From assembly GCF_000332355.1 (NCBI RefSeq), contig NZ_KB235958.1, positions 3,734,756 to 3,777,124 of the forward strand: a stretch of DNA of 42,369 bases. The letters run 5' to 3'. Of this stretch, positions 194-42,369 are shown piece by piece. Each line of letters starts with the position of its first letter. The stretch's first letter is position 1. The notes beneath the pieces were generated by a model that was given only the letters and a program-made list of their open reading frames with translations, did not search any database and was not told the DNA's origin. Made by a program: the position numbers and the translations under genes. The stretch comes from Baaleninema simplex PCC 7105 (GTDB lineage: Bacteria > Cyanobacteriota > Cyanobacteriia > Cyanobacteriales > Geitlerinemataceae).

Positions 194-206
194 ACTGCTT
201 CGCGGT

Positions 207-1457
207 TTACTGTAAATTTGGGGCGGACATTTCTTGCATGACGGTTTCGATGTTCACTTGAAAATAGGCTTCTCGATTGCCCAGTTGTCGCGCCAGTTCT
301 AGGCCGCGTCGGAAGGCTTCTAAGGCGGGGCCGTAGTTTTGGCGTCGCTGTTGCAGTTTGCCGATGCGATCGTACGTAACCATCAAGCCGTAGGTGTCTC
401 GCGCCAGTTGGTGGACGTCAAGTTGGGTGCGATAGACCTGAAGTGCCGCGTCGAATTCGTTATACCGTTCGTAGAGCAAAGCTAGGCGATCGAGGGCTTC
501 TTGGGCGCGGTAGAACTGCAAGGCTTCCCAGGCCAGGCGATAGGCGTCTTGAAACTGCGTCACGGCGGCGTTTAACTGTCCGATCGCAGCATAATCGTCG
601 CCGATCGCGAGCTTTAATGCCGTGACTTTGGCAATATCGTTGAGAGTGCGGTAGTAGGTTTCTAATTCCTGTTTGACGGCGATCGCGTCTTCGTATCGGC
701 GGAGTTGGTCGTAAATATAAGCCAACTGCGTTAAATAATAGGCTTCTGACAAGCGATCGCCCCGAGAAACCGCCATCTCCCGCAGTTCGCGATAAGCCGC
801 CGCCGCTTCCTCGTAATCCAAATCCTGCAAAGCGATACGGGCGATTTGCCGCAGGGTTTCTTCCTCCGTGATGGGATCGTTGCGATCGCGGGCGATCGCT
901 AACACCCGTTCGAGTAAGTCCAAGGCTGCCTGACGGGCCCCGACTTCTTCGTAGGCTTGGGCTAAACGCTGCAACACCTCCACGTTGGGGGTTTCCCGTT
1001 CCTCGAGCTGTTCGGCTTGCAGTTGGCGCAACCGCTGCGTCATCACTTGCGCTTGATAGAAGTTTTCCTGCTGCCATGCGATACTACCGACGCGAAGCAG
1101 AGCTTCCAACTCCGCTGAAGTCCCTAAAAACCGCCGCAAGCGGATTTCGCGGTTCCACAACTCGAAGGCGGTGGCGGCGTCTCCTTGCGCTAAAGCCGCT
1201 TGTGCGCGAGCGTTGAGGGTATCGAGAGCGCGATCGAGCTGGCGTCGTTCCTCCGGTTTCAGTTCCGTTGCTCCCTCCCACACCGCTTCAGGAATCAGGG
1301 GATCGGGTTCCGTCAGTTCTAGGGGACTGGGGGGAAAACTGTTTTCGGGTTCGGCGCGAACCCCAAGCGCAAACGTCAAACTCCCGAGGAGCGTCGCCAC
1401 AGCGAGGACGTTGGCTGATACAGTAAGAAACCGAAATCGCAAATGCAAAAAAGCCAT
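207..1457 (-). CDS. Exported tetratricopeptide-repeat (TPR) protein
   Basis: A 416-residue protein starting at the ATG at 1457. Residues 1-35 look like a Sec signal peptide: basic start (LHLRFRF), a hydrophobic stretch (VLAVATLLGSLTFALG), and a likely signal peptidase I site after VRA. The mature part is almost entirely helical TPR units, about seven, from roughly residue 118 to 400. Recognisable consensus stretches include AYEEVGARQAALDLLERVL, YEEAAAAYRELREMA and YGPALEAFRRGLELARQLG. TPR proteins are scaffolds for protein-protein contacts; no catalytic domain is visible. It is divergent from the phytase-like gene with only about 16 bp between the starts, so the two may share a control region. 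The partner is unknown. Signal peptide and TPR calls are firm; the role is not. Confidence 0.85.
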   Translation of the reverse strand: MAFLHLRFRFLTVSANVLAVATLLGSLTFALGVRAEPENSFPPSPLELTEPDPLIPEAVWEGATELKPEERRQLDRALDTLNARAQAALAQGDAATAFELWNREIRLRRFLGTSAELEALLRVGSIAWQQENFYQAQVMTQRLRQLQAEQLEERETPNVEVLQRLAQAYEEVGARQAALDLLERVLAIARDRNDPITEEETLRQIARIALQDLDYEEAAAAYRELREMAVSRGDRLSEAYYLTQLAYIYDQLRRYEDAIAVKQELETYYRTLNDIAKVTALKLAIGDDYAAIGQLNAAVTQFQDAYRLAWEALQFYRAQEALDRLALLYERYNEFDAALQVYRTQLDVHQLARDTYGLMVTYDRIGKLQQRRQNYGPALEAFRRGLELARQLGNREAYFQVNIETVMQEMSAPNLQ

Positions 1458-1473
1458 TGATGTGGGGTCGATC

Positions 1474-2697
1474 GTGCTTGTAAATCAGTTATTGACCGTG
1501 CTGCGCGTCCGACGCCGCGCCTTGTTCCGAGTTGTCGGACTGTTCTGTGTTGCCGTTGCTGCGAGTTCCCTCGTCGGATGTAGTTTGCCGCAAGTCCAAG
1601 CCGAAAATCGGCTGTTTCTCGATCTGTCGGTGGATTATCTCGACGACTCCCAACTGAGCGAGATCGAGTTCGAGGGAACGCCAGTCGGCGGACTGTCCGC
1701 CCTGACCTACGATCGCCAACAGGGAGTATTTTATGCCCTCTCAGACGATCGCGGGATGTTAGCTCCGGCTCGATTTTATACTTTAACCTTGACCCTCGAC
1801 AGCAGCGACCCGAACTCGCCCGAGATTGCCGACTTGTCCGTGACAGATGTTACCGAACTGACAGACGCATCCGGGGAACCGTTTGCTCCCGGTGCGATCG
1901 ATCCCGAAGGATTGGCGTTGTCTCCCGACGGAACCCTGTTCGTATCTAGCGAAGGCGTCGCCAGCGAGGGCATCGCGCCGTTTGTTGCCGAGTTCGATCG
2001 CTCCGGTCAGCTAATTCGCCAACTCCCCTTACCCGAGTATTTTATTCCCGACAGTGTCGGTGAGGCGCAGGAACTGGGCGTTCGGGACAACCTAGGATTC
2101 GAGGCATTAACCGTCGGCGGTTTGGGAAGTGGGGAACCCTATCGGGTGTTCGCCGCCACCGAATCGGCACTGCAACAAGATTTCGATCCCGACACCGACA
2201 GCATCGAGACGATTAACTGTCGTCTGTTACATTACGTCGTTATCGCAGAGCGATCGCAAATCGTCGCCGAACACCTGTATCGCCTCGATCCGCCCCCGTC
2301 TTCCCTGACGATTAGCCACGGCTTAGTCGAACTGCTGTCTCTCGACGGTGCGAGCGCTTTAAACCTCAATGGAAGCGGCTATTTTCTGGCGTTAGAACGT
2401 AGTTTCGGCGCGTCTGGGTTTGGGGCAAAACTGTTTCAAGCTAACATTGGCAGTGCCACCGACGTTTCGACGCTCACTTATTTACGGGGCGATCTCGACG
2501 GCATCGATCCCTTAGCCAAACGGTTGCTACTGGATTTAAACGAGTTAGACTTCGATCTCGACAACCTCGAAGGGATGACCTTCGGTCCTCGTTTACCAGA
2601 CGGTTCCCAGAGTTTGTTGTTCGTTAGCGACAATAACTTTCGCGACGAACAGAAAACAGAGATCTTGCTATTTCGGTTGCGTAAAACGCCGTCATAA
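1474..2697 (+). CDS. Phytase-like (esterase-like) beta-propeller lipoprotein
   Basis: About 407 residues. No ATG precedes the signal sequence. I chose the GTG at 1474, which has a GGGG run about 6 bases upstream; GTG at 1462 or 1498 is also possible. The N-terminus has basic residues (RVRRR), a hydrophobic core, and a lipobox ending LVGC, so a lipidated periplasmic or outer-surface protein is likely. The rest resembles the 'esterase-like activity of phytase' family (PF13449): GLSALTYDRQQGVFYALSDD near the N-terminus, then IDPEGLALSPDGTLFVSSEG, NLGFEALTVGG, and the closing NLEGMTFGPRLPDG with LLFVSDNNF. Such proteins are predicted propellers that may release phosphate from extracellular esters; activity here is inference. 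The reading frame continues upstream antisense to the TPR gene, but that part has no coding character. Confidence 0.8.
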   Translation: MLVNQLLTVLRVRRRALFRVVGLFCVAVAASSLVGCSLPQVQAENRLFLDLSVDYLDDSQLSEIEFEGTPVGGLSALTYDRQQGVFYALSDDRGMLAPARFYTLTLTLDSSDPNSPEIADLSVTDVTELTDASGEPFAPGAIDPEGLALSPDGTLFVSSEGVASEGIAPFVAEFDRSGQLIRQLPLPEYFIPDSVGEAQELGVRDNLGFEALTVGGLGSGEPYRVFAATESALQQDFDPDTDSIETINCRLLHYVVIAERSQIVAEHLYRLDPPPSSLTISHGLVELLSLDGASALNLNGSGYFLALERSFGASGFGAKLFQANIGSATDVSTLTYLRGDLDGIDPLAKRLLLDLNELDFDLDNLEGMTFGPRLPDGSQSLLFVSDNNFRDEQKTEILLFRLRKTPS

Positions 2698-2727
2698 TTG
2701 ACAATTGACAACGTTTTTTACAGTCAC

Positions 2728-2804
2728 CAGTCCGTAGGGTGCGTGACTTGAAAAATCGGGTGTAAATCCTGAGACCGATCGCTCGTCACGCACCGCCAAT
2801 GTAG
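2728..2804. repeat. Inverted copy of the 83-85 bp repeat
   Basis: This is the reverse complement of the unit at 1-85, from the GTCACGCACC arm through GGTGCGTGAC. One change (GAGCGATCGG for GAGCGCTCGG) turns the centre into part of a GCGATCG-like site. Together with 1-193 it brackets the TPR/phytase-like gene pair in opposite orientation. Confidence 0.85.
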
Positions 2805-2821
2805 CCGAAGTCAGGTCAATA

Positions 2822-2897
2822 CTTCTCCCCTTCTCCCCTTCTCCCCTTCTCCCCCTCTCCCCCTCTCCCCCTCTCCCTTACTCCCTTACTCCCCCTC
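2822..2897. repeat. Polypyrimidine microsatellite upstream of cpcT
   Basis: An uninterrupted pyrimidine-rich tract made of 7-9 base units (CTTCTCCCC, then CTCTCCCC, then CTCCCTTA). It ends about 14 bases before the cpcT ATG, so it occupies the place of the 5' leader and may affect translation or slip during replication. No Shine-Dalgarno sequence is visible within it. Confidence 0.85.
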
Positions 2898-2910
2898 GAC
2901 TTATTTGCCC

Positions 2911-3513
2911 ATGACACATTCGACAGATTTAAAAACTTTAGCGAGTTGGATGGCTTCAGATTTCAGCAACCGCCAACAAGCCTTTGAGAACCCACCCTTG
3001 TTCGCCCAAGTCCGGGCTTGTATGCGTCCGCTCCCGCCGGACGTCTTGTCGGGGGTGAGTTTTTATTTAGAACAAGCTTACGAATACGCCCTCAACCGTC
3101 CCTATCGAACACGAGTGTTGAATCTCCAAGTCGTTGGCGACGGAGACGAGAAAAAAATCGTCATTACTAATTACGCGATCGCCAACGCCGAAGAATTTTT
3201 CGGAGCCTCCCGAGAGCCACAGCGGTTGAGTTCTTTAACGAGCGATCGCCTCACCGCCCTATCGGGTTGTAACTTTATCGTAGACTGGACGGGACGAAGT
3301 TTTAAAGGAACCGTCGAACCCGGAAAAAGATGTCTCGTCGAGCGAAACGGGAAAACCACCTATCTCGATAGCACCTTTGAAATCTCAGCCACTCACTTTA
3401 CGACCCTCGATCGCGGTTACGATCCCGATACGGGCGAGCGGGTTTGGGGATCGGTGGCCGGTGCGTTTGAATTCGAGCGTTTGACGAGTTTCGCCAACGA
3501 AGTTCGCACGTGA
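2911..3513 (+). CDS. cpcT: Phycocyanin chromophore lyase CpcT (CpcT/CpeT family)
   Basis: A 200-residue protein from the ATG at 2911; a TTG two codons earlier is less likely. The whole chain matches the CpcT/CpeT lyase family as I know it: TLASWMASDFSNRQQAFENP at the start, RACMRPLPPDVLSGVSFYLE, then GCNFIVDWTGRSFKG, VEPGKRCLVERNGKTTYLDS and the C-terminal LDRGYDPDTGERVWGSVAG. Family members attach phycocyanobilin to Cys-153 of the phycocyanin beta subunit on the cytoplasmic side, before phycobilisome assembly. Length is normal for the family. It stands alone on the plus strand, not next to cpc genes. The polypyrimidine tract immediately upstream is unusual as a leader. CpcT rather than CpeT is preferred because of the close match at both termini. 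Confidence 0.92.
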   Translation: MTHSTDLKTLASWMASDFSNRQQAFENPPLFAQVRACMRPLPPDVLSGVSFYLEQAYEYALNRPYRTRVLNLQVVGDGDEKKIVITNYAIANAEEFFGASREPQRLSSLTSDRLTALSGCNFIVDWTGRSFKGTVEPGKRCLVERNGKTTYLDSTFEISATHFTTLDRGYDPDTGERVWGSVAGAFEFERLTSFANEVRT

Positions 3514-28594: not shown

Positions 28595-30256
28595 GGGTTT
28601 GCTGAAAAAGTTATCAAAAGCTGGGGGTGGAAAATGAACAAGAAGCCGTCTTACTCAAGGTATAAATCTGAATTGACTTAACTCGTCCACTTTATAAGTT
28701 ACAATAATATTTCTCGACAAAATTATGAAGTTTGGGAAAAATTGACACAAAAAAAGACAGTAAAACTGCCGGCTCAGCTTCACCAGGTTCATCACTAAAA
28801 AGGTCAGAGCGATGGAGGTTTCCGAAGTATTAGGCAGTTTAGCCATAACACGACTTAAGCTGAATCTTCTTTTGGCTTGTCCAAATTTCCCCTCGATTGC
28901 ATTACGAATGCGCTCATCTTCCTGGGCTTGTTTTTTGGCTTCTCGGCTGAGGTTTTTAGGAGGTCTTCCTAAAGGCGGTCCGCTGAGACGAATTCCTCTT
29001 TCTTTACACCAAGCTCGATTAGCTCGGGTTCGATAAATTCGATCGGCGTGAACCGATGAGGGGTAAACTCCCATATAGTCTTTGTAAGCTTCGACTTGCG
29101 AGATTAAATCTCCACTTTCATTATAATTATCCCAACTAATTTTTTCGAGAAATACATATCCTTCTACACAACTGACTGATAACTTAGCCCCGAATTCCGT
29201 AGGACTTGCTGCCTTGCCTCTGACGATTGGACGGAGATGAGGTTGTGTTAAACTGACGATGCGATTTTCGATTTTATTTTTATGATTTGACCACATCCAC
29301 TGCTGTTGACGGGTAATTTCACTGGAGACTAATAAATTCCTGTATTGCCTTCGGCTTAAGCATTCTAGGCTCGCTCCTTTCTCAATTAATTTCTCAATGT
29401 TTTGGAAGTTTCGTTGAAGATATTGGAGTTGTTTTTTGACAGCATTTCTTCTTTCTTTGCGAGAGGGTCTCCTCTTTTTGGCAAATTTGAGATACTCTTT
29501 TCGGGCGAGTTTTCGGTGGGTTCAGGTTTTTTAGACAGTTGGCCCTTCAGGGATTTATATAAAATGTCTAGGATGAGTTCGGTGGTTTTCCTCGCTTGAT
29601 TTAACAGTTCGACATCGGTGGGGTATTTGATATCGGCAGGTGCGACGGTCGCATCGATTAAGAGTTTCCCTCTATTTTCTTTTCTTCTTTCGACTCCTTC
29701 TGACTTTTTTGTGCTAGATTCCTCCCGTTGAAATCCTCGAGCTTGTCTGACAATTCTTCGATTTATTTTTTGAAGTAGAGAGCGACCAATCCTTTGCCGA
29801 AAATGAACCATCATTGAAGCATCAAAAGGCGCTTCATTTCGATAACTCTTTTCCCCGATAAAATACTGTAGGTAAGGGTTTTCTTTAATTTGTTCGACAG
29901 TTTCTCGGTCGCTTATTCCCAATTTTTCTTTAATAATTAAGGCTCCCAGTGCCATCCGAAATGGTTTCGCTGGTGCTCCCATTTCCTCAGAAAAATTCTG
30001 GGCATATTCTTCCTCAAATTCTGCCCAGGGAATGAGGTTCGCCAAAATTACCCAACGATTTTCTTCACACAACTTGCCTTCAAAAGGAAGTTCAAAGGCT
30101 TCTTCGGGCGCGTCAGGATTTTGTGATTTTCGATACATTTTTTCTTGCCGGATGCACGGGAATTTCCAATTTTACCTCTTTTTCGGGTTCTCGAAGCCAC
30201 GTCAAGACTCCTCTAAGCCTTACACCGTAAGCTTTTCACTTCTTTTCAGCAAGCCC
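28595..30256 (-). mobile_element. Insertion sequence, about 1.66 kb, IS5/IS1182-like
   Basis: The ends are GGGTTTGCTGAAAA (28595) and, on the other strand, GGGCTTGCTGAAAA (ending 30256), a 14-bp inverted repeat with one mismatch. TATATA flanks both sides, so the target duplication is probably a short TA-rich sequence. It carries one transposase frame, broken by a frameshift. It sits between two kinase genes and does not interrupt a recognisable gene. Confidence 0.85.
28655..30138 (-). pseudogene. Frameshifted DDE transposase of the IS
   Basis: The 5' part (30138 down to about 29525) encodes the N-terminal domain seen in IS5/IS1182-type transposases (AEFEEEYAQNF, GALIIKEKLGISDRETVEQI, MVHFRQRIG, LLIDATVAPADIKYPTD). 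After about residue 205 the frame runs into unrelated sequence and stops at 29386. A second frame picks up at about 29525 with HRKLARKEYLKFAKKRRPSR, continues through KQLQYLQRNFQNIEKLIEKG, and ends at 28655 with the catalytic half (VHADRIYRTRANRAWCKERG, then IEGKFGQAKRRFSLSRVMAK). The shift is near the CCC at about 29520. An A6 run is nearby, but slippage there gives an immediate TGA, so an inactivating indel is more likely than programmed frameshifting. Confidence 0.85.
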
Positions 30257-30576: not shown

Positions 30577-32484
30577 TTAAGTTCCCGTTTTTTCCTCGTC
30601 TTCCGAGAGCGTTTCTTCCTGGGGAACGAGGGCAAAAATCTTATCGAAGCGAAAATCCTCGAGCCAAACCGTCAATCGCTCGGCTAAGGCGGCCGACTCC
30701 TCGGGGATTTCATCAATGAGCGAACGAACGATCGCATCGTTGGCGGACATCGCCCCATATCGCAGTCGCATCCGCCACTGAACCGGCATCGACGCCAAAT
30801 CTTCCGAAGTCAGTTCCAGAGAGGGAAGCACGCTCTCCGACGCCGTGTCCTCTACCATCTCGTACAGGTAGCGTACCCCCAAATGTCGGGCGATTTTCTC
30901 GAAGATCTCCTCTTCCCGAAACGGCTTACGAAGGAAATCGTCGCATCCGACAGCTAACACCGACGCTCGTTCCTCCTCAAACGCACTGGCGGTTAAGGCA
31001 ACGATCGCCGTGGGACTTTTCGCCCCCGTCTTCTTCTGCTGGGCTTTAATCTGTCGCGTCGCCTCGTAACCGTCCATCACGGGCATCCGCACGTCCATCC
31101 AAATCAAATCCGGTTGCCACGCCTTCCACTGTGCGATCGCCGCCTGGCCGTCTTCGGCAGAGCGCACCTCGAACCCCGTCACTTCCAACAATTTCACCAA
31201 AAACTGACGGCTTTCGCGGCGATCGTCGACGACCAACAATTTAGGAACGGGGCGATCGGCGAGCGGTCTGACGACGCGGCGTTTGGGGGTCTCGGACGAG
31301 TCGCCGATCTCGATCGGCTGCGTTTCCACCGGTACGATAATATCGAACTGAGCGATCGTCCCGACCCCGAGAACGCTATCGAGGGTGATGTCTCCCCCCA
31401 TCAACTGCACCAACTGACGGCTAATCGGCAAGCCTAACCCCGTTCCCTCTTCCGAACGATATCCGGTTTGCGTTTGCACGAACGCCTCGAAAATCGTTTC
31501 TAACTCCTCTGGAGCGATACCGGGGCCAGTATCCTCGACCTCGAAATACAAGCGAACGCGATCGCCACTTTGGGGAACCGCCCCCACTCGTAACGCGACG
31601 CTTCCAAACTCGGTAAACTTAATGGCGTTACTGAGCAAGTTGATCGCCACTTGCCGCAACTTCCCCTCGTCTGTACGGATGCACGGTGGCACGTCGTCGC
31701 TACAGTAAACCTCGAAACTCAACCCTTTCGCTTGCGCTCGCCACGCCAACATATCCGTGACCCCTTGCAAGAGGCGATCGAGACGCACCGGGGCTTCTTT
31801 AAGCGTGACTTTTCCCGCCTCGATTTTCGAGAGTTCTAGCACGTCGTTAATCAAGGTCAACAAATGCTCGCCGCTGCGACAGATAATCCGTAAATACTCC
31901 CGTTGTTCCTCGGTTAGCGTTTTATCCCGTTCCATCAATTGACTGAACCCCAAGATCGCGTTTAATGGAGTTCGCAGTTCGTGACTCATCTTCGCCAGAA
32001 ACTGGCTTTTGGCCTGACTGGCACCTTCGGCGTGACGTCGGTTCCGAATTTCTTCCTGTAAGCGGCGGCTGCGATCGGCTAGAGCCTGGGTCAAACGTCG
32101 CATTTTCAAATGCAATTGCAAACGCGCCAGCACTTCGTCCCGTTGAAACGGCTTGGTAATGTAATCGACCGCTCCGAGAGACAAGCCTTTGACTTTATCG
32201 ACGGGATCGGACAACGCACTCATAAAAATCACGGGAATTTCCCGCGTGAGGGGGTTGTTTTTCAAACGACGGCAGGTCTCGAATCCGTCGATTCCCGGCA
32301 TGAGAATATCGAGTACGATCAGGTCGGGCAGTTGTAAGGCTGCCACTCGTAGCGCACTTTCTCCATCTTGAGCGACGCGCAACGCAAATCCTGCCGCTTC
32401 TAAGTGAGCCGACAAAACGCTGAGGTTTGTTGGGTTGTCGTCTACGATAAGGACGACTGCATTGGGTTGGGGTTCGGGAGTCAT
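30577..32484 (-). CDS. REC-HisKA-HATPase-REC hybrid histidine kinase
   Basis: A 635-residue soluble hybrid kinase. The N-terminal receiver has Asp59 in LIVLDILMPGIDG, followed by a coiled-coil linker (about 125-155), HisKA with KMSHELRTPLNAILGFSQL and His168, an ATPase domain with LLSNAIKFTEFG and GTGLGLPISRQL, and a second receiver with Asp464 in WMDVRMPVMDGYE. A 110-residue helical tail follows. There is no membrane segment or sensor domain, so input probably comes by phosphotransfer to the first receiver. The cyclase gene ends 89 bp upstream on the same strand and begins with a similar receiver, so the two may form one operon and pathway (inference). Confidence 0.9.
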   Translation of the reverse strand: MTPEPQPNAVVLIVDDNPTNLSVLSAHLEAAGFALRVAQDGESALRVAALQLPDLIVLDILMPGIDGFETCRRLKNNPLTREIPVIFMSALSDPVDKVKGLSLGAVDYITKPFQRDEVLARLQLHLKMRRLTQALADRSRRLQEEIRNRRHAEGASQAKSQFLAKMSHELRTPLNAILGFSQLMERDKTLTEEQREYLRIICRSGEHLLTLINDVLELSKIEAGKVTLKEAPVRLDRLLQGVTDMLAWRAQAKGLSFEVYCSDDVPPCIRTDEGKLRQVAINLLSNAIKFTEFGSVALRVGAVPQSGDRVRLYFEVEDTGPGIAPEELETIFEAFVQTQTGYRSEEGTGLGLPISRQLVQLMGGDITLDSVLGVGTIAQFDIIVPVETQPIEIGDSSETPKRRVVRPLADRPVPKLLVVDDRRESRQFLVKLLEVTGFEVRSAEDGQAAIAQWKAWQPDLIWMDVRMPVMDGYEATRQIKAQQKKTGAKSPTAIVALTASAFEEERASVLAVGCDDFLRKPFREEEIFEKIARHLGVRYLYEMVEDTASESVLPSLELTSEDLASMPVQWRMRLRYGAMSANDAIVRSLIDEIPEESAALAERLTVWLEDFRFDKIFALVPQEETLSEDEEKTGT

Positions 32485-32573: not shown

Positions 32574-34088
32574 TCATCTGCGTCCGACGAGCCAATAAGT
32601 CGTCATTTCCCCTTTACCTTTGACAGAGACTAAACCCCGCTCTTCAAACATAAAGCGATCGGTGAGGCGATGGTACGTATCTCCCGTGACTTGAATGCGC
32701 CCCGGAATTCCCGTCGATTCCATGCGACTGGCGACGTTGACGGTATCTCCCCAGAGGTCGTAAATAAACTTTTTAATGCCGATGACACCGGCGACGACTG
32801 CACCGCTGTTGATGCCGATGCGAATTTGAATCGGCGTATCTGAATAGGGTTGAAAGGATTCGATCGCATCGAGCATATCTAAGGCCATGTTCGCGATCGC
32901 GTCGGCGTGGTCGTCCCGAGGCACTGGGAGTCCACCGGCGACCATATACGCGTCTCCGATGGTTTTAATTTTTTCGAGGCCGTGTTTTTCGGCCAGGCGA
33001 TCGAAAATCGAGAAAATTTGATTGAGGAGATTGACGATTTCTACCGGAGACACGCGAGATGACAGTGCGGTAAATCCGACGATATCGGCGAACAACACCG
33101 TGGCGTCGTCAAAGCGATCGGCGATCGCACTTTCGAGTTGTTTGAGGCGATCGACAATGGCTCGCGGCAAAATATTGAGCAATAAGTGTTCGGATTTTTG
33201 CTTTTCAGCTTTGAGGGCTTCATCGGCCAGTTTCCGTTGCGTAATATCGTCGAGAACCCCTAAAATTCCGATCACTTCCCCTTTTTCGTTATGAATGGGC
33301 AGTTTGTTGATGTCGAGCCATACTCGCTTCCCGTCCGGTCCGGTTTTTTGCTTGGTGGCGACGATGTGAAGCTCGGGAGTATCGGAGTCGATAATTTTTC
33401 GGTCTTGTTCGCGAAACTGGTCGGCAATGGCGGGATCGGCAAACATATCGTAATCCGTTTTTCCCACCACCTCGTCGGGACTGCTGAGTTGAGCTGCGTC
33501 GGCCCAGTTTTGGTTGCAGCCGAGAAAGACTAAATCCGTATCTTTCCAGAAGACCTGTTGCGGAATGTTATCGAGGATCAGCCGCAAGTACTGTTCTTTT
33601 TCTCGTAAGGCGGCTTGTGCGCGAGAGCGATCGCGAATTTCTTGCTGGAGCTTGGCATTTTGTTCGGCCAGTTGCTCTTGCAGTCGCTTGAGTTTGAGTT
33701 GGTTTTCAATCCGCGCCAGCACTTCAGCAAACTGAAACGGTTTAGTAATATAATCGACCCCCCCCGACGAAAACGCCTTGACTTTGTCCATTACGTTGTC
33801 GAGCGCACTGATGAAAATGACCGGAATTCCTTGCGTTTTAGGATTGGCTTTGAGACGGCGACAGACCTCGAACCCGTCGAGTTCCGGCATATTGATATCG
33901 AGTAAAATCAAGTCGGGCGGTTCGGTTTCGGCGACCACCAGGGACATCTTCCCCGTCGTTACGCTGCGGGTTTCGTACCCTTTACGGGACAGCATCCGAG
34001 AAAGCAACCGTAAATTTTCGGGCCGATCGTCAACGAGTAACAACGTGGCTTTTGGCTCGGTAGGAGAGTCTGGGGAAATGTGGGTCAT
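32574..34088 (-). CDS. REC-PAS class III adenylyl cyclase
   Basis: A 504-residue protein. The receiver has Asp64 in LILLDINMPELDGFE; a coiled coil (about 130-160) leads to a PAS domain (about 165-285, LRLILDNIPQQVFWKDTDL to GVLDDITQRK). The C-terminal cyclase domain has the metal Asp335 in FADIVGFT and Asp379 in KTIGDAYM, the adenine-recognising Lys375 and Asp444 (YDLWGD), and Asn451/Arg455 of NVASR. This residue set favours ATP over GTP and is close to class IIIa enzymes. It likely makes cAMP under phosphorelay and PAS control in the cytoplasm. It is upstream of and parallel to the REC-HK-REC gene. No obvious haem or flavin motif is seen in the PAS. Confidence 0.93.
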   Translation of the reverse strand: MTHISPDSPTEPKATLLLVDDRPENLRLLSRMLSRKGYETRSVTTGKMSLVVAETEPPDLILLDINMPELDGFEVCRRLKANPKTQGIPVIFISALDNVMDKVKAFSSGGVDYITKPFQFAEVLARIENQLKLKRLQEQLAEQNAKLQQEIRDRSRAQAALREKEQYLRLILDNIPQQVFWKDTDLVFLGCNQNWADAAQLSSPDEVVGKTDYDMFADPAIADQFREQDRKIIDSDTPELHIVATKQKTGPDGKRVWLDINKLPIHNEKGEVIGILGVLDDITQRKLADEALKAEKQKSEHLLLNILPRAIVDRLKQLESAIADRFDDATVLFADIVGFTALSSRVSPVEIVNLLNQIFSIFDRLAEKHGLEKIKTIGDAYMVAGGLPVPRDDHADAIANMALDMLDAIESFQPYSDTPIQIRIGINSGAVVAGVIGIKKFIYDLWGDTVNVASRMESTGIPGRIQVTGDTYHRLTDRFMFEERGLVSVKGKGEMTTYWLVGRR

Positions 34089-34934
34089 AGTACCTGACGA
34101 AAGAAGCTCGCTCCACTACTGCGATCGATCGCACTTTGTTCTCCACCTTGTCTCGGGGCGTCTTGACGACCGGCCAAGATATCCGAGGAGTCGCACTGTC
34201 AATGCAATTAAGGGGTAACACCCTCTAGGGTAGTCTAGAGGAATCGGCCGAGAATATCGATATGGCTAAACTTACCCGCGCCCTTGCAACGGGCGAGCGT
34301 CTGAAAAGACATCACGTCTTTCTACATATAACTTAAGGCTTGCAAAACCGTCACGAACGGGCAACGGCGAACGACCTCTGGCTGGGTTGAGGTTCGAGCG
34401 AATACCGATGCTGAAAAACGAGTCGAGTTGGGTTCATCTCAATGGATGTAAAAATATGAATCTGGGATAGGTTGGACTTCGGCAACGCTGCCGTCCAGGG
34501 GTGGAGCGATCGCGAAACCCAACAACAGCTCAATTCACTGCAAAGACTCCGATCTGATAAATTTACATTTTTGAGATGCGCCCTTCGAGTTGTTTTGTTT
34601 AGGGCGGACGCATTGACGCGATTTATCCGACAGGCGCAGTTCCCAGCTTGCTAAATTGTATCGAACTTTAGCTGTTAACACTATCTGTAGCGCAAAGGAT
34701 ACCAATCTTTCTCTATATTTAGTGTGTATGGGCGTTAATTGTGTCAGTTTTGTTAGAGTATAACACGCTCGATTTCATGGGTTCGGTCTGTTTTCAATCT
34801 GGTAACGACTGACGAACTCCGATCGCCGTTTGAGAACGCGATCGCATTCTTCTTCTCGCCTCTTGTCAAAGTGAGTTTTCTCGATTAGACTCGACGAAAA
34901 TTTCAGTTTATTTCTCATCGTTGAGGATAAATTC
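34089..34934. other. Intergenic region, 846 bp
   Basis: No gene is supported. It contains the repeat element at 34431-34584, a small GC hairpin near 34277-34296 (CGCCC/GGGCG), and AT-rich DNA before the acidic-protein gene at 34935. A promoter for that gene must lie at the right end, but no clear -35/-10 pair stands out. Confidence 0.5.
34431..34584 (+). mobile_element. Small non-coding repeat element with 8-bp flanking duplication
   Basis: It matches the inverted copy at 26432-26584. The flanks carry a perfect 8-bp direct repeat, TCGAGTTG, at 34423-34430 and 34585-34592, consistent with a target duplication. The ends are partly inverted (CATCTCAA and TTGAGATG). It lacks an ORF, so it would need a transposase in trans. 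Confidence 0.75.
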
Positions 34935-35465
34935 GTGATAAAAACCCTGAATTGGTTGGCTCTAACAATGTCTATGTTAACAGTCGCCTCGTTCCTGTTA
35001 GCAATTGGAACTTGCCCTACACTCTCGCAGCAAGCCCAGGCTGCCGAAATCGATCGAGATAACGATGCGATCGCACAAGGATACGAAGAAGACTTCGACG
35101 AAGAGGAATTCAGCGAAGAAGACTTCGACGAAGAGGAATTCAGTGAAGAAGACTTCGACGAAGAGGAATTCAGTGAAGAAGACTTCGACGAAGAGGAATT
35201 CAGTGAAGAAGACTTCGACGAGGAAGAGTTTGACGAAGGCTTCGACGAGGAAGAGTTTGACGAAGGCTTCGACGAGGAAGAGTTTGACGAAGAGGAATTC
35301 AGCGAAGAAGACTTCGACGAGGAAGAGTTTGAAGAAAGCTTTGACGAGGAGTTTGACGAAGAGGAATTCAGCGAAGAAGACTTCGACGGGGAGTTTGACG
35401 AAGAGGAATTCAGTGAAGAAGACTTCGACGAGGAAGAGTTTGAAGAAGAGGAATTCGAGAACTAG
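34935..35465 (+). CDS. Exported hyperacidic Phe-Asp-Glu repeat protein
   Basis: A 176-residue protein from a GTG at 34935, with GAGG about 8 bases upstream. Residues 1-37 form a Sec signal peptide (hydrophobic LALTMSMLTVASFLLAIG, cleavage after AQA). After a short linker, about 125 residues consist almost only of Asp, Glu, Phe and some Ser and Gly. The decamer EEFSEEDFDE recurs seven times, with shorter FDEGFDEEE and FEES variants. Phe every 4-5 residues separates acidic clusters. The DNA repeats are nearly identical 30-mers, so the tract grew recently by slippage or recombination. It may bind Ca2+ or other cations, or coat a surface; this is inference. No known domain. It is a single-gene unit with its own terminator. 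Confidence 0.8.
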   Translation: MIKTLNWLALTMSMLTVASFLLAIGTCPTLSQQAQAAEIDRDNDAIAQGYEEDFDEEEFSEEDFDEEEFSEEDFDEEEFSEEDFDEEEFSEEDFDEEEFDEGFDEEEFDEGFDEEEFDEEEFSEEDFDEEEFEESFDEEFDEEEFSEEDFDGEFDEEEFSEEDFDEEEFEEEEFEN

Positions 35466-35505
35466 AGAACTCTAGAAAATCTACTAAAGCGATAGATTAT
35501 AACGA

Positions 35506-35535
35506 CTCGGTATCTCTAAAGATACCGGGCTTTTA
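35506..35535 (+). terminator. Terminator after the acidic-repeat gene
   Basis: A stem pairs 35506-35515 with 35520-35529 (CGGTATCT / AGATACCG core), loop CTAA, then CTTTTA and more T residues. It lies about 40 bp past the stop. Confidence 0.75.
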
Positions 35536-35630: not shown

Positions 35631-35798
35631 GGAATCCGAACTCAAATACTGGTTTTACCCAACCTGACAAGTCCCTCTATCCCCCCAACCATCCCCCCTT
35701 CGCCCCCCTTTCAAAGGGGGGCGAAGGGGGGATAGGGGACTAAGGGGGGATGTGGTGAAGATTTCTTGAAACTTATTCTATCGGTAAAAGATGGAGTA
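35631..35798. repeat. Copy B of the C/G-run hairpin repeat
   Basis: It aligns with copies A and C. The centre is a near-perfect palindrome of CCCCCCTTCGCCCCCCTTT and its complement, able to form a very stable hairpin. It abuts the end of cbiO, so it may also act as a transcription stop or stabilise the cbi mRNA 3' end. Confidence 0.75.
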
Positions 35799-36620
35799 TC
35801 AATACTCTTCACAACTCGATCGCTTCACGATCTGAGAACGTATCTTGTCCGCTGAAATACCGTTGTCTTCCAACATTGTTAGTAAATCTACCGCTAACGG
35901 TAAGCCAAGCCCTAGGGTTCTGAGTTCTTGGTGTCGATCGAACAGGTCTTCAGCGGGGCCTTCAAGAACGATGCGTCCGCAGTCCATTACCATCAGCCAA
36001 TCCGCCCAAGCATAGATAAAATCCAGGTCGTGAGTAGCGATTAAAGTCGTCGTTCCAGCGACGTGAATGCGTTCGAGGCGGCGAAACAGCGTGCGGGTTT
36101 GCGCCGGATCGAGATAAGCCGTCGGTTCGTCCATCAGCAGGAGTTGCGGTTGCAAAACCATCACATCGGCGATCGCCACTCGCTTCTTTTGACCCAAACT
36201 CAGATGGTTAATCGGCGTATTCGCCAACTCCAACAAATCGAAATCCTCTAAAGTCCGCTGCACGCGATCGGCAATCTCCGATTCAGGTAATCCCAGATTA
36301 CACAGACCGTAGGAAATATCCTCTTCCACCGTCGTCGCCACGAGCTGATGTTCCGGGTCTTGGAACACCAAACCCACCTGCTGGCGCAGCGTCCGCAGAG
36401 ATTTGCGGCTGTAATCTAGCGGTTTTCCCTGCCAGTACAACTTACCGCGATCGGGACGAAACAGACCGTCCGCCAACCGTAACAGCGTACTTTTCCCGCA
36501 GCCATTGCGACCGATGAGACCGCAGCGGCGACCGGGAGGAATGCGTAACGAGAGTTCTTGTACGGCGGGTTTTTTGGCGCAGGGATAGGTGTAAGTGACG
36601 CGATCGAACTCAATTGGCAT
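35799..36620 (-). CDS. cbiO: Cobalt ECF transporter ATPase CbiO
   Basis: A 273-residue ABC ATPase from the ATG at 36620; the frame is open upstream but that is the antisense-like tail of cbiQ. Motifs: Walker A GRNGCGKST, Q-loop FQDPEHQ, signature LSLGQKKRVA, Walker B LLLMDEPTAYLD, H-loop ATHD. The C-terminal extension is typical of energy-coupling-factor ATPases. It powers Co2+ import with CbiQ, CbiN and CbiM. The start overlaps the end of cbiQ by 11 bp, so translation is coupled. It is the last gene of the riboswitch-controlled operon. Confidence 0.95.
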   Translation of the reverse strand: MPIEFDRVTYTYPCAKKPAVQELSLRIPPGRRCGLIGRNGCGKSTLLRLADGLFRPDRGKLYWQGKPLDYSRKSLRTLRQQVGLVFQDPEHQLVATTVEEDISYGLCNLGLPESEIADRVQRTLEDFDLLELANTPINHLSLGQKKRVAIADVMVLQPQLLLMDEPTAYLDPAQTRTLFRRLERIHVAGTTTLIATHDLDFIYAWADWLMVMDCGRIVLEGPAEDLFDRHQELRTLGLGLPLAVDLLTMLEDNGISADKIRSQIVKRSSCEEY

Positions 36621-37407
36621 AATAGATTCCCGTGGCGATCGCCAACAACAGACACCCCGCCATCGCTTCCGTACTGTAACGCCAACTGGGTTTGTGACGG
36701 CGAGCGTGCCAAACCTGCAACTCTCCCGTAAAGTTCCGCGACTGCAACCCGAGAGAGATTTGGCGATAACTATCCAACGTTCGCACCACAAGCTGACTGA
36801 CTACCAGTCCCAAACTGCGAAGACGAACCCGCCAAGTCAGATATCCCCCACGCGATCGCTGAGCCGTCACCAAGTCCGTGGCCGTTTCCGCCAACATAAA
36901 AATAAAACGATACATCAGTGCCAACAATTCCACCATCAAGCTGGGACAGCGAAGTTGGCGCAACACCCGCAAAATCTCCACAAACGGAACTGTCAACAAA
37001 ATGAAATACAAACAGGAGGTCAGCGTCAAGGCGCGAGCGAACACCTCACTCGCCTGTTGCCATCCTTGCACGCTGAGATAGAGATAAACCGGCCCGACAA
37101 CAACCCCTTGCATCACATCCGGTTGCACCGCACTCCAACGACTCGTCGCCGTCACCCCCAGCAACAACGCCGGAACGCTCGTCAGCCAAAAGCTGAGGGG
37201 CAACAGTAACAGTCGAGCGTAAATCTTCGCCGGAATCTTTGCGTAGCCGACAATCCACACCGCCAGCCAAAGGGCGATCGCACCTTGAACCCAAGGCACA
37301 GACCCATAACCGAGAATAAAGAGAACGGCAGCAAAACTCAACTTATGCTCGGGAGGCAAGTGTCGAAGTCGGTTGGTATAGACGAGAGAATCAATCTGAT
37401 GGTGCAT
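36610..37407 (-). CDS. cbiQ: Cobalt ECF transporter transmembrane component CbiQ
   Basis: A 265-residue membrane protein from the ATG at 37407, preceded by GAGGGTG; a TTG three codons earlier is also open. It begins MHHQIDSLVYTNRLRHLPPE, the usual CbiQ start, and has about five to six hydrophobic helices. Two cytoplasmic coupling stretches contact the ATPase; the Ala-Arg-Gly-type motif appears here as AQRSRGGYL, and a second helix carries SLGLQSRNF. It links CbiO to the CbiMN substrate module. The gap from cbiN is about 70 bp. Confidence 0.93.
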   Translation of the reverse strand: MHHQIDSLVYTNRLRHLPPEHKLSFAAVLFILGYGSVPWVQGAIALWLAVWIVGYAKIPAKIYARLLLLPLSFWLTSVPALLLGVTATSRWSAVQPDVMQGVVVGPVYLYLSVQGWQQASEVFARALTLTSCLYFILLTVPFVEILRVLRQLRCPSLMVELLALMYRFIFMLAETATDLVTAQRSRGGYLTWRVRLRSLGLVVSQLVVRTLDSYRQISLGLQSRNFTGELQVWHARRHKPSWRYSTEAMAGCLLLAIATGIYYAN

Positions 37408-37476
37408 CACCCTCAAGCCACGTCCGCCGCCGTACCCGCCGCCAGGACATCGTTTCCCAGAGCGTTCGGGGATTTA

Positions 37477-37791
37477 TCATTCTTTGCCAGATTGTTTGCG
37501 CTCCGTTCGTCCTCGATAAAACCCGATCGCATAGCCGATAACCCCCGCACCGATGGCGGCTTGAGAGACAAACAGCAAACTTTCGATTTCACCGCTCGGC
37601 GGCTCGAACACCCCTCCAAACCAGGGTTCGTAATCCGGTTGAATTTCGCCAATCGCCTCTTCTGCTTCGCCGTCAGCCCCGCCGTATTCGCCTTTGACGA
37701 AAATCAGGGGAAGTACCGCCAGGGCAATCACGGTAAAAACGATGAGCCAGTTTCCTTGTTTTTGGGGTTTTTGTGTGGGTTGCGTTTCCAT
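37477..37791 (-). CDS. cbiN: Cobalt transport protein CbiN
   Basis: A 104-residue protein with two membrane helices (NWLIVFTVIALAVLPLIFVK, about 14-33, and a second at about 74-92) and an acidic periplasmic loop with GADGEAEEAIGEIQPDYEPW. CbiN loads Co2+ into CbiM through this loop. Length and position fit the family. It starts 3 bp after the cbiM stop, so coupling is likely. Confidence 0.94.
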   Translation of the reverse strand: METQPTQKPQKQGNWLIVFTVIALAVLPLIFVKGEYGGADGEAEEAIGEIQPDYEPWFGGVFEPPSGEIESLLFVSQAAIGAGVIGYAIGFYRGRTERKQSGKE

Positions 37792-37794
37792 CTC

Positions 37795-38550
37795 TTAAGC
37801 TCCTGTTTTCAAAACCTTTAACGTCTGTAATTCCTCGGTGGCGTAGGATTGCAGCCAATTCCAGACCAACACCGTCAGGAGACCTTCGCTGATGGCGAGG
37901 GGAATTTGAGTGAGGGCAAAAATCCCCGCAAACTTCACGAAAGCGGCGACGAAACCCCCGCTGGCAGCGGGAAAAGCCAAAGCCAGTTGAACCGAGGTGA
38001 CGATGTAAGTAACCAAGTCTCCCAAAGCCGCAGCTAGGAACACGGCGAGTTTTTGCTTGCCGCTGTTGGCAAAGAGGCGATAGACGCCGTAAGCTACCCA
38101 AGGGCCGACGATCGCCATCGAAAAGACGTTCGCGCCTAGTGTCGTCAAACCGCCGTGAGCTAATAAAACTGCCTGGAAAATCAGGACGAGACTGCCAAGA
38201 ACGGTCATCACCGACGGTCCGAACAGAACGGCTCCCAATCCCGTCCCCGTGGGGTGGGAACAGCTCCCCGTCACTGAGGGAATTTTCAAGGCGGAGAGGA
38301 CGAAGCTAAAGGCTCCAGCTAGAGCCAGTAACAGTTTGAGTTCGGGATTTTCGCGAGCAATGCGAGCCAGCGATCGCAATCCCAAAATGAAAAACGGTAA
38401 AGATACAATCCACCAAAATGCAGCCCAGCCAACGGGTAAAAATCCTTCCATAATGTGCATGGCTTGGGCGGGTGGAGCGGCTCCCACAACCAGGTAAAGG
38501 CTCAAAGCCGCCATTGCGACTAACTGTAAGATTCGAGGGTTTGGTTTCAT
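37795..38550 (-). CDS. cbiM: Cobalt ECF transporter substrate-binding component CbiM
   Basis: A 251-residue membrane protein. Residues 1-30 form a signal peptide ending PAQA; the mature protein then begins MHIMEGFLP, the free Met-His N-terminus that ligands cobalt in the CbiM/NikM family. Further conserved stretches are [20 protein letters not shown] (with the binding His) and [20 protein letters not shown]. It is the specificity subunit, so with the upstream cobalamin riboswitch the substrate is Co2+ rather than Ni2+. It is first in the order cbiM-cbiN-cbiQ-cbiO. Confidence 0.96.
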
Positions 38551-38700: not shown

Positions 38701-38919
38701 TATGAGACGATCGTGATAACGGTAATTTCTGACAATACGTGAAGTGACTAAGACGAGCGAACTCATCTGAGCTTCAACGCAATTTTTTAAAACGACCCGT
38801 CTGATGCAAGTTTTTCTACTCGTTTCGGAGTTTTGTAGGGATTCTCCAAAAACGAGAAAATTGCGATCGCGTAAATTCTAAAGCTGTTATCATCCGTACC
38901 TCGCAGATGTTGAAAAATA

Positions 38920-39125
38920 CAAACCACGTATCGGCGGGCATTCTGACTGAGAAAAAGAGAGGGTTCGATCTTGGATAAAAGATCTTAAGCTCAGATTCGT
39001 TAGATTTCCAAACTTAGGCTCTCAACCTTCGACTCTTTTTCATTACAGCTGCGGGACAGCGGCAGATTTGCACTGCTCTTTCCCCGTTTTCTCTAGGGGC
39101 TGCTCCCCCCTAGAACCGATAATCT
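38920..39125 (-). promoter_or_regulatory. Cobalamin (B12) riboswitch upstream of cbiMNQO
   Basis: Read on the minus strand, the core consensus is clear: GGGGAAAGAGCAGTGCAAAT with CTGCC (39087-39061), GCTGTCCCGCAGCTGTAA (to about 39043), and after a variable part the B12 box AGTCAGAATGCCCGCCGATA (about 38950-38930). The 5' hairpin CTAGGGG/CCCCTAG precedes it. High adenosylcobalamin should shut off the cobalt importer. About 370 nt separate the aptamer from the cbiM ATG, partly filled by repeat copy C. The exact expression platform is not resolved. Confidence 0.9.
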
Positions 39126-39410
39126 TCCACATCCTATCATCTAAGAAACCCTGTGGAGCCTTCGAGATCCGAAAATCAACGGATCTTTACCGTTTTCGAC
39201 GAGGGGAGGTGCGATCGCTAGAGTTAAGATTGTTTACATTTCGATAAAATGTAACATATTATTCACAAAGATTGACAATCACATAAATTCGTAGTAAATA
39301 ATCGTAAAAAATAAAGAAAAGCTAGAAAGAGAAATAGTTAGAATGAGTGGGAACCTCGAAAAATTCATTATTTGAGTTCAGATTAAAAAAATAAAATGGT
39401 CTTTCATATC

Positions 39411-39658: not shown

Positions 39659-40861
39659 ATGGCAAATGCAGAACAATTAAATCGATTGAAGACAAAAGAA
39701 GTAGAAGTCTGGAATCAGTGGAGATTTAGAAATTCTGGAATACAGATAGACTTACAGGAAGCCGATCTCAAGAAAGCCAGCCTAGAGAGAGCCAACTTGA
39801 AAGAAGCTAACTTGAAAGGAGCTAACCTACAGAGAGTCAAGCTAAAAGGAGCCAATTTGGAGAGAGCCGTTCTGAGGGAGGTGAACTTGAAAGGAGCTAA
39901 CTTAGAGGGAGCCAACTTACGAGAAGCCGAGTTGGAGTATGCTGACTTGAAGGGAATAAACCTGGAGGGAGCGATCTACACACCAGAAACGAAGTGGCCC
40001 AGTGATTTCCAGCTTGAAGAGCGAGGTATGTACTCAATCGCTCCTAATGCTGAGTTGGAGGGAGCCGATCTACAGAGAACCGAGCTTCAAGGAGTGAATT
40101 TACAGGGAGCCAATCTAAAGGGAGCCAACTTGAGGACAGCCCGTCTGGGAGGAACCGATCTAGCGAGAGCGAATCTGGAAAATGCCAACCTGGAGAATGC
40201 CAACCTACGGGAAGCGAATCTGGAAAATGCCAACCTGAAGGGAGCAAATTTAAGAGGAACTGATTTGACGAGAGCGAACTTGGGAGAGGCGAACCTTTAT
40301 CAAGCCAGCTTACGGAGAACCAAACTACGGGGAGCTTTCCTGTGGAGAGCCAATCTAGAGGAAGCGAACCTGGAGTATGCCTATCTATGGGAAGCCAATC
40401 TAGAGGAAGCGAACCTGATGAGAGCGAACTTAAAGGATACCACCTTGGAGCTAGCTAACTTGACGAGAGCGAATCTGGAGAGAGCGGATCTGGCGAGAGC
40501 TGAGCTAGGGGAAGCAAACCTGACGAGAGCGAACCTGGGGTATACCTACCTGTGGGAGGCTGAGCTGACGAGAGCCAATCTGGAAAAAACGAACCTAACG
40601 AGAGCGAACCTAGAGAATGCCACCTTAAAAGGAGCCTTCCTATGGGAAGCCAATCTGGAGGAGGTTAATCTAAAGGGAGCGAGTCTAAAGGGAGCAGCTT
40701 TGTGGAAAGCGAATTTGAAAGGAGCGAATTTAGAGGGAGCTGACTTACAGGAAGCTGAGTTAGAGGAAGTGAACCTGAAGGGAGCGAACCTGGATGAAGT
40801 GATTTATACAGGGTCTTCGGAGTTTGTGGTTATAAATGTATACCATAATACAAAAAATTGA
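39659..40861 (+). CDS. Pentapeptide-repeat protein, 5' part of a split gene
   Basis: A 400-residue product beginning MANAEQLNRLKTKEVEVWNQ, then about 70 pentapeptide units of the A(N/D)Lxx type (for example LERANLKEANLKGANL) that should fold as a right-handed quadrilateral beta-helix. A non-repeat spacer (YTPETKWPSDFQLEERGMYS, about residues 108-127) breaks the helix. The last 16 residues (from GSSEFVV) come from the 121-bp MITE at 40811, which also supplies the stop. Before the insertion, the gene ran on to 41440 as a 550-residue protein. Pentapeptide proteins act as scaffolds or DNA mimics; the role here is unknown. Whether the shortened product folds is not known. Confidence 0.88.
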   Translation: MANAEQLNRLKTKEVEVWNQWRFRNSGIQIDLQEADLKKASLERANLKEANLKGANLQRVKLKGANLERAVLREVNLKGANLEGANLREAELEYADLKGINLEGAIYTPETKWPSDFQLEERGMYSIAPNAELEGADLQRTELQGVNLQGANLKGANLRTARLGGTDLARANLENANLENANLREANLENANLKGANLRGTDLTRANLGEANLYQASLRRTKLRGAFLWRANLEEANLEYAYLWEANLEEANLMRANLKDTTLELANLTRANLERADLARAELGEANLTRANLGYTYLWEAELTRANLEKTNLTRANLENATLKGAFLWEANLEEVNLKGASLKGAALWKANLKGANLEGADLQEAELEEVNLKGANLDEVIYTGSSEFVVINVYHNTKN

Positions 40862-40939: not shown

Positions 40940-41440
40940 CCAGAAACGAAGTGGCCCGGTGATTTCCAGCCTGAAAAGCGAAGTATGTACTCGATCGCTC
41001 CTAACGCTGAGTTAGAGAGAGCCAATCTGGAGAGAGCAGAGCTGAAGGGAGCGAATTTAGAGGAAGCGAACCTGAAGGAGGCCAACTTAAGGGGAGCTGA
41101 GTTGGAGAGAGCTAATCTCTGGAAAGCCGATTTGTGGGAGGCCAACCTAGAGGAAGTGAACCTAAAGGAGGCCAACCTAAAAGCAGCTAAGTTGGAGAGA
41201 GCTAATCTCTGGAAAGCCGATCTAGAAGGAGCGAACTTGAAGGATGCTAATTTAAGGGGAGCGAACCTGAAGGGAGCTTGGTTGAGAGCCGTAGAAAATC
41301 TCACCCCAGAACAAATCAAAGCAGCGTGTAACTGGCAGAAAGCCATTTTAGATCGAGACTTTCGAGTAAGACTAGACGAAATATCGGAACCTAAAACACC
41401 GTTCAAGCAAAGATTTTCTGAATCTTCACTAGATGAGTGA
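40940..41440 (+). pseudogene. 3' part of the split pentapeptide-repeat gene
   Basis: It continues the frame of 39659 directly after the MITE and its second target copy: DEVIYT joins PETKWPGDFQPEKRSMYS without shift. It has about 22 further pentapeptide units and the common C-terminal cap NLTPEQIKAACNWQKAILD. An internal ATG at 40985 could start a 151-residue fragment, but no ribosome site is visible. It repeats the spacer YTPETKWP seen in the 5' half, showing an older internal duplication. Confidence 0.85.
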
Positions 41441-41614: not shown

Positions 41615-42369
41615 GGGTCTTCGCAAAACAAGGTGATAAGAAAAACTTATTAAGTAAAGCAAGACAGAAAGCGCATTCGCATATTTTCAAAATTTATAAA
41701 GCCATAAGCTTGACGCTTTATCAGTTTAAGACGATTATTAATACCCTCCATAACACCATTGGTTGTTCGGCTCAAGAAATAATTACATATTGTGTTAAGA
41801 TGATTGCGAATTGTCTTGACAGCATCACCATAAATACTCTGTGCTTTACACAGCCATTCTTTAAATTTATTTTTTCCGCTCTCTGGGTCTTGAGTTGTTT
41901 CATAAATTTCTCTAAAATCCTCTTTAAGCTGATAAGCTTTTCGTAAACGTTTTGACTGTTTTAAAACGGCCTCTAATTTTTCCAATTCCTCTTCTTTTAA
42001 GTCTTTTTGGTTTTTCAGCAATAACCATTTGGCTCCTTTGATTTTGATTTTAAACTTCACCTGCTTTCGGATTTTATTTAGATTGTCATTCACCGCTTTC
42101 ATAACGTGAAATCTATCGACGACAATTTGGGCATTGGGAAACACTTTTTCGATAAGCTTTGGAAATCCTCCCCACATATCTACACTGACTTCTTCGACTG
42201 CCTCTCTGACCTCTAACGGTTGCTGTAGAAGAACTTCAGCGATTTCTTCTTGTTGGTGAGAGTCGATGACTTCTATCAATTCTCCTTTCTCTAAATCGCT
42301 CACTACCGTCACTAAATTTTTGTGACCTTTATGTTTTGCTATCTCGTCCAAACCCAACCTTTTACTTGT
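41615..42369 (-). mobile_element. ISL3-family insertion sequence (partial, runs off the window)
   Basis: The left end is GGGTCTTCGCAAAACAAGGT at 41615, and the transposase reads leftward toward it. The presumed 8-bp target is GTCATTCC at 41607-41614; the other copy lies outside the window. The right end is not visible. Confidence 0.8.
41650..42369 (-). CDS. ISL3-family transposase, 5' end missing at window edge
   Basis: The frame is open to the window edge; its visible N-terminal part is TSKRLGLDEIAKHKGHKNLV, so the first ATG-like codon inside the window is not the true start. The DDE_Tnp_ISL3 pattern is clear: LGLDEIAKHKGH (first catalytic Asp), VEEVSVDMWGGFPKLIEKVF with Asp, IVVDRFHVMKAVN, and the C-terminal TTNGVMEGINNRLKLIKRQA with Glu. 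About 239 residues are visible of a usual 400 or so. It is probably functional in this part, with no stop or shift. Confidence 0.92.
   Translation of the reverse strand, partial: TSKRLGLDEIAKHKGHKNLVTVVSDLEKGELIEVIDSHQQEEIAEVLLQQPLEVREAVEEVSVDMWGGFPKLIEKVFPNAQIVVDRFHVMKAVNDNLNKIRKQVKFKIKIKGAKWLLLKNQKDLKEEELEKLEAVLKQSKRLRKAYQLKEDFREIYETTQDPESGKNKFKEWLCKAQSIYGDAVKTIRNHLNTICNYFLSRTTNGVMEGINNRLKLIKRQAYGFINFENMRMRFLSCFT

Follow-up and report, generated by a model that had tools for sequence, protein, structure and literature searches.

Hyperacidic protein chains in general bind divalent cations. Several described systems resemble, each in part, the locus considered here. Like the pentapeptide-repeat proteins (PF00805), its product has a five-residue period, 15-bp units at the DNA level and a central hydrophobic residue; unlike them, it departs from the repeat pattern of that family and contains four-residue spacings. 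With the acidic transcriptional activation domains it shares the clustering of acidic and aromatic residues, both of which are necessary in those domains according to PMC10550315; those domains, however, are eukaryotic and nuclear, and the analogy is one of physical chemistry only. As for the acidic proteins of biomineralisation, the Asp-free repeats of the ortholog described below argue against an Asp requirement. Our literature search found no paper on an acidic Phe-repeat protein of this kind, which is not proof of absence, and the available part of a paper on strain PCC 7105 itself (PMC6682694) holds nothing bearing on the gene.

The gene lies in a stretch of 42,369 nucleotides of the genome of Baaleninema simplex PCC 7105, a mat-forming cyanobacterium, which was analysed as a whole and is called the window below. 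A sequence-only reading had drawn attention to it, and the claims of that reading are taken up where our results bear on them.

A hyperacidic chain with evenly spaced phenylalanines

The composition of the predicted protein bears out the claim that the open reading frame is hyperacidic and built from repeats (Table 1): the 128 residues from 49 to 176 comprise E64 D24 F26 S8 G4 Y1 N1, with a net charge of -88, and 89% of them are Asp, Glu or Phe. Lys and Arg are absent from this region, and His and Cys from the whole mature chain, in which a single Arg and no Lys occur. The periodicity of Phe, which had likewise been noticed, is without exception, all 25 of the 25 Phe-Phe gaps being 4 or 5 residues long, against 13 of 25 in the best of 20,000 composition-preserving shuffles. 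Split after each Phe, the repeat opens with a six-residue block and otherwise consists of 20 pentads, 5 tetrads and a terminal EN; the pentads read DEEEF in 12 cases, SEEDF in seven and EEEEF in one. Seven EEFSEEDFDE decamers had been counted, of which six are exact and the seventh carries one mismatch (EEFSEEDFDG). Their 30-bp DNAs are near-identical as stated, differing at no more than three positions and including two identical pairs; the TRF arrays in the repeat, however, measure 15, 12, 27, 42, 69 and 99 bp, so that the repeat is built on a block of 15 bp (12 bp in some cases) and not only on the 30-bp unit first proposed. Strong order of the Phe residues at the angles of a helix or a flat strand is absent from the repeat: the amphipathicity order at 100 degrees is 0.07, and in the range of 160-180 degrees it does not exceed 0.15, with peaks at 75 degrees (0.64), which is the 4.8-residue period itself, and at 155 degrees (0.35).

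Table 1. Features of the acidic repeat gene and its neighbours, in positions of the window
Feature	Position	Strand	Basis or remark
Hyperacidic protein CDS, apparently exported	34935..35465	+	176 aa, GTG start, stop 35463-35465 included
Signal-peptide-like N-terminus, residues 1-36	34935..35042	+	cleavage between AQA and AE inferred by eye
Mature protein start, residues 37-48 = AEIDRDNDAIAQ	35043..35078	+	aligned counterpart in the ortholog = ETIDRDNGSISQ
Acidic Phe-periodic repeat region, residues 49-176	35079..35462	+	sequence, repeat splitting
Promoter-like TTGTCA-17-TAGACT	34863..34891	+	consensus scan; scan counts not above shuffles
Shine-Dalgarno-like GAGG	34923..34926	+	read from sequence
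Intrinsic-terminator-like hairpin, then T tract	35506..35529	+	-14.1 kcal/mol, z -5.3
Receiver-PAS-class III nucleotide cyclase, divergent neighbour	32574..34088	-	adjacency common to the ortholog locus
Receiver-HisKA-HATPase-receiver hybrid kinase	30577..32484	-	counterpart also after the cyclase in the ortholog locus

The apparent export of the protein, also part of the sequence-only reading, agrees with our judgement by eye of its N-terminus, which combines K3 and a hydrophobic core with a predicted cleavage site. A lipoprotein start was not recognised there by eye, the sole Cys (residue 27) being preceded by IGT, which we take not to be a canonical lipobox. Elsewhere in the same genome (L002, C4:1171363-1171626) there is a second acidic repeat protein, which has a lipoprotein-like start (LGAC) and tandem EEGMTEEAPA decamers.

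No family had been recognised for the acidic protein, and none emerged from our searches: Pfam, NCBIfam and the PDB sequences gave no usable match, the sole Pfam row at E<=1 being ExoU_C at E 0.41, below the cut-off (the HMMER filters drop many rows above 0.1). At that threshold Pfam thus gave no row for RTX or EF-hand repeats or for the pentapeptide repeat PF00805, and neither Pfam nor NCBIfam matched an S-layer or anchoring domain. Single-sequence AlphaFold, which is weak evidence for disorder, returned a model with pLDDT 56.3 and pTM 0.21, in which residues 2-25 form a helix and short low-confidence helices occur elsewhere, with no strand.

The 15-bp units and the five-residue period with a central Phe could be taken as traces of a decayed or acidic pentapeptide-repeat beta-helix, the more so as a true pentapeptide-repeat protein is encoded nearby (39659-40861, + strand, by a Pfam run on that ORF) and three weak matches of our protein search (L036, L037 and L040) look pentapeptide-like by eye. 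We nevertheless consider this origin very improbable: the pattern [ASCTVI][DN][LF] fits 0 of the 26 Phe sites of the acidic protein against 46 matches in a 400-aa protein of the window, the four-residue gaps break the register, and neither a PF00805 row nor a strand in the low-confidence model supports it.

An ortholog with different repeat units

The sole ortholog found belongs to Geitlerinema sp. BBD 1991-9 (LWRO01000019.1; L043/L024, genome G002), and its authors (PMC4918915) place BBD 1991 near PCC 7105 by 16S. By eye, its signal-peptide-like N-terminus ends between AKA and ET after residue 34; the sequence-only reading had named a signal peptide disrupted in all relatives as grounds for abandoning its claim, and the one relative found keeps an AxA signal peptide. 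The mature N-terminus, with an IDRDNxxIxQ motif common to both proteins, is also the site of the best DNA match between window and BBD outside the repeat (45 nt, E 2e-6). In each species the acidic gene and the same receiver-PAS-cyclase gene are divergently oriented, with 846 bp between them in the window and roughly 475 bp in BBD, and a hybrid kinase of the same kind follows the cyclase. By N-terminus, architecture and gene neighbourhood, the two form one orthologous group. The repeat units, in contrast, differ between the two species: those of BBD are almost only EEEEF and GEEF (one EEEF), with Asp absent, and their Phe gaps up to a frameshift run 4,5,5,4,5,4,5,4,5. The sequence-only reading had suggested that repeat number varies among strains; what the present comparison shows is a difference in repeat units between two species.

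The BBD gene, in its assembled form, departs from the acidic frame after codon 96, residues 35-96 having a charge of -37, and then encodes a 58-residue basic tail (+14). Next to the shift the acidic frame is taken up again, with similar third-position variation, and extends up to GLEDIEGVVEEYGEEVLEEIGQ and then a stop; in this frame the ortholog differs from the window protein in having a longer acidic C-tail. According to PMC4918915, the genome was assembled with k up to 92 from HiSeq PE100 reads. Since single 100-base reads cannot span the repeat, a misassembly is plausible; the shift could also be a real mutation, in a gene that is possibly decaying.

Flanking signals are found in both species. 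Upstream of the BBD start lies TTGTCA-17-TATTTT, the DNA match between window and BBD around TTGTCA being weak (E 0.086), and the BBD gene, too, has a terminator-like hairpin. Consensus scans gave no excess over shuffles, either in the window region (3 promoters against a shuffle mean of 1.9, 1 terminator against 2.3) or around the ortholog (2 promoters against 0.9, 1 terminator against 0.9). The signals carry weight because they are similarly placed in both species and because of the hairpin z-scores. Apparently, the acidic repeat gene is monocistronic.

Silent variation among the repeats

The repeats of each gene vary chiefly at third codon positions. At codon positions 1, 2 and 3, the variable columns number 1, 1 and 5 of 5 each among the window pentads (n=20) and 0, 0 and 5 of 5 each among the BBD pentads that precede the frameshift (n=6). 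The tetrads are less one-sided, with 1, 2 and 4 of 4 columns variable in the five window copies and 0, 1 and 3 of 4 in the four BBD copies. Four DNA versions of the BBD pentad yield one peptide in the acidic frame, as against four peptides in either other frame. The repeat copies are non-independent and no p-value is claimed for this codon-position bias; taken as a pattern, the data speak for purifying selection that acts on the acidic frame, and the open reading frame is probably a real gene.

The +1 frame (35005-35475) is basic and weakly HC2-like, matching PF07382 (Histone H1-like HC2) at E 2e-6 with 28.5 bits, under the curated cut-off of 40 for that family. Its opening over 156 codons, together with this match and the passage of the BBD assembly from the acidic into the basic frame, might suggest that the +1 frame is the real product or that both frames are used. 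Within the repeat, however, the openness follows from codon composition, because GAR, GAC, TTY, AGY and GGN codons cannot form a stop there. Further, most of the DNA variation leaves the acidic-frame peptide unchanged but alters that of the +1 frame, and in both species it is the acidic frame that has the signal-peptide-like start. We therefore give very little credence to a +1 product.

A narrow phyletic distribution

A search with the protein in 291 genomes of the order matched 18 genomes at E<=0.001, with true homologues in the own genome and in G002. The other 16 loci, all of which were opened, were rejected as low-complexity, with at most 22 Asp/Glu per 70 residues around the match centre in any frame; the L027 and L036 matches run over stop codons, and the three pentapeptide-like loci named above are also among those rejected. 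A query with the BBD piece matched 3 of 388 genomes, namely the own genome, G002 and G096, the last with an unrelated exoprotein. An N-terminal profile matched 3 of 388 genomes in the order (own, G002 and one spurious) and 2 of 386 in the phylum (own and one spurious), the spurious cases, so judged on reading, being G190 in the order, presumably a rubrerythrin-like protein, and G483 in the phylum. When genome contigs were scanned with the protein, none of 164 pattern matches was confirmed in a scan so insensitive that it missed the BBD ortholog in the same collection; tblastn of plasmids, with the low-complexity filter on, gave no match.

The shared cyclase offers a second view of the gene's age. 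Among 520 stretches related to it, the best 80 were examined for an acidic ORF (at least 22 Asp/Glu in 40 residues), which was present in one of the 80, that of BBD (L043); many of the 80 hold less close cyclases, and some have little upstream DNA. At the four next-nearest loci (L044, L045, L047 and L048, Sodalinema/Phormidium-like) no acidic ORF lies beside the cyclase, a statement that covers that site only, and roughly 236-293 bp separate the cyclase match from the next gene, which we take to be ispG-like. The cyclase tree places the window and BBD closest to one another, with support 89/94, below the star threshold, and sets these four loci apart in a starred clade. The simplest reading is that the acidic gene was gained in the lineage of the window and BBD; its loss in the four-locus lineage is possible.

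Presence in just two of the searched genomes, the lack of the gene at that site in the four next-nearest cyclase loci, and the frameshift of the BBD copy as assembled would all fit a young minisatellite ORF of little or no function, a GAA-rich repeat, now drifting, that expanded downstream of a signal peptide in a single lineage; so would the occurrence of acidic/aromatic tracts with a five-residue period in unrelated genes, to which we turn below. Drift of this kind is at odds with the third-position bias among the repeats of both species, which extends to the BBD stretch after the shift, and with a signal-peptide-like start, mature N-terminus, cyclase neighbour and hairpin common to both. 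On balance, we regard a repeat of little or no function as unlikely, though as an account that deserves serious consideration.

Comparable tracts in unrelated proteins

A class search in 388 genomes matched 10, including the own genome, and all 11 non-self matches, in nine genomes, were opened. An EEYAEEEY protein with a signal-peptide-like start by eye (L129, genome G738), which turned up in 1 genome among the 36 of its family, resembles the window protein in being acidic with periodic aromatics (Tyr/Trp), the gaps being 4, 5 or 9 in the measured stretch; no N-terminal or synteny relation to the window protein was shown, and it is treated as an analogue. L127 (genome G096, 31-3138, - strand), the exoprotein matched by the query with the BBD piece, carries a TPS secretion domain, an FGDDE acidic tract and a CHAT domain in one open frame. 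Its tract, in a protein that has a secretion domain, is likewise acidic, and the Phe gaps are mostly 4 or 5, but it is a linker between two domains and not free-standing. In the class search, similar tracts occur in an AMIN-domain protein (L138) and a Uma2-like protein (L131), and L130 combines a hydrophobic segment with an EEYAP tail. RbfA has an acidic Phe-periodic C-terminal tail at L134, L136 and L139, differing in sequence among the three genomes (Pfam was run on L139). The remaining matches are a DFxQA-type tract (L132), a SEAEL repeat (L137) and what we take to be Hsp70-like ends (L133 and L135).

The acidic/aromatic pattern is thus unusual but not unique, recurring in unrelated cyanobacterial proteins, perhaps since short GAA-rich repeats expand easily. 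The RbfA tails and the Uma2-like protein are apparently cytoplasmic, so that an extracellular role does not follow from the pattern by itself.

Gene neighbourhood and metal handling

The acidic gene of the window is convergent with cbiO, and its 3' end adjoins a cbiMNQO set (35799-38550) that has a cobalamin riboswitch upstream (38916-39135, - strand). This position, together with the general affinity of hyperacidic chains for divalent cations, could point to a metal- or mineral-handling protein, such as a periplasmic Co2+/Ni2+ buffer or a Ca-carbonate nucleator. The convergent orientation argues against it, as does the BBD locus, where the ortholog is not beside cbiO: its downstream neighbour is presumably an ispG-like gene, and the best CbiO match of the BBD genome is on another contig. 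The lack of His and Cys in the mature chain, the absence of an EF-hand or RTX row in Pfam and the Asp-free repeats of the ortholog also weigh against metal handling, and we judge it rather improbable. Co-function with cbiMNQO was set aside as the main reading because this neighbour is not shared with the ortholog. Mineral nucleation and a surface layer, both raised as possibilities from the sequence alone, are inferences; Asp-dependent nucleation in particular is weakened by repeats with Glu and no Asp in the ortholog, and no matched S-layer or anchoring domain speaks for a surface layer.

Because of the cyclase neighbour, we also looked for the CRP/cAMP site TGTGAN6TCACA with at most 2 mismatches; the window holds 6, against 12.9 expected, which gives no support. 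A link of the adjacent cyclase to the regulation of the acidic gene is possible.

Several other elements of the window deserve mention. A very strong C/G-rich palindrome between the acidic gene and cbiO (35676-35760; -63.3 kcal/mol as RNA, z -6.4) may be a REP- or MITE-like element. A transposase is spread over two ORFs carrying its DUF772 and DDE parts (28655-30138, - strand), an ISL3-type transposase lies near the window end (41650-42357, - strand), and a second repeat ORF of similar look (40985-41440, + strand) follows the pentapeptide-repeat protein.

Discussion

We tentatively favour, with somewhat less than even confidence, a lineage-restricted gene whose product would be an intrinsically disordered polyanion, exported by Sec and acting by cation-dependent self-association or adhesion in the envelope or mat matrix; the export, disorder, cation binding and self-association of the protein are what we infer. 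That two relatives with different units keep the charge and the Phe spacing points to physical chemistry as the function, that of a polyanion with weak stickers. Counted in favour of such a polyanion are the ortholog, with its like architecture and synteny but different, Asp-free units, and the similar tracts carried by other proteins with export features (L129, L127 and L138). Selection would keep the physical pattern, that is, dense negative charge and one Phe per 4-5 residues, and not the exact sequence. After signal cleavage the chain would reside in the periplasm or the outer matrix, where its acidic spacers may bind divalent cations or cationic polymers and its evenly spaced Phe residues may act as weak stickers; together, spacers and stickers would bring about the proposed cation-dependent self-association or adhesion.

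A wider conjecture, which we think doubtful and offer as speculation, is that exported acidic chains with aromatic residues at intervals of 4-5 positions have arisen repeatedly among cyanobacteria as cation-switched extracellular stickers, which would form condensates or gels at seawater-level Mg2+/Ca2+, with a strength tuned by repeat number. The examples that could be named for such repeated evolution are the Phe of the window protein, the Tyr of L129 and the Phe of the L127 and L138 linkers. A bolder side reading starts from the lack of stops in the +1 frame of the repeat: an indel would then convert the chain into an acidic/basic diblock, which is what the BBD assembly reads.

The sequence is extreme and tidy, yet narrow in its distribution. 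Should the polymer reading be wrong, the locus would be a lineage-specific minisatellite gene of little consequence. The gene also provides a modest example of how silent variation among the repeats of a low-complexity protein can make the selection acting on it readable. If the favoured polyanion is real, it would be a very simple natural bacterial polyelectrolyte, made mostly of three residue types at regular spacing and located outside the cytoplasm, and it would offer a clean system for relating charge and sticker spacing to cation-triggered assembly in microbial mats.
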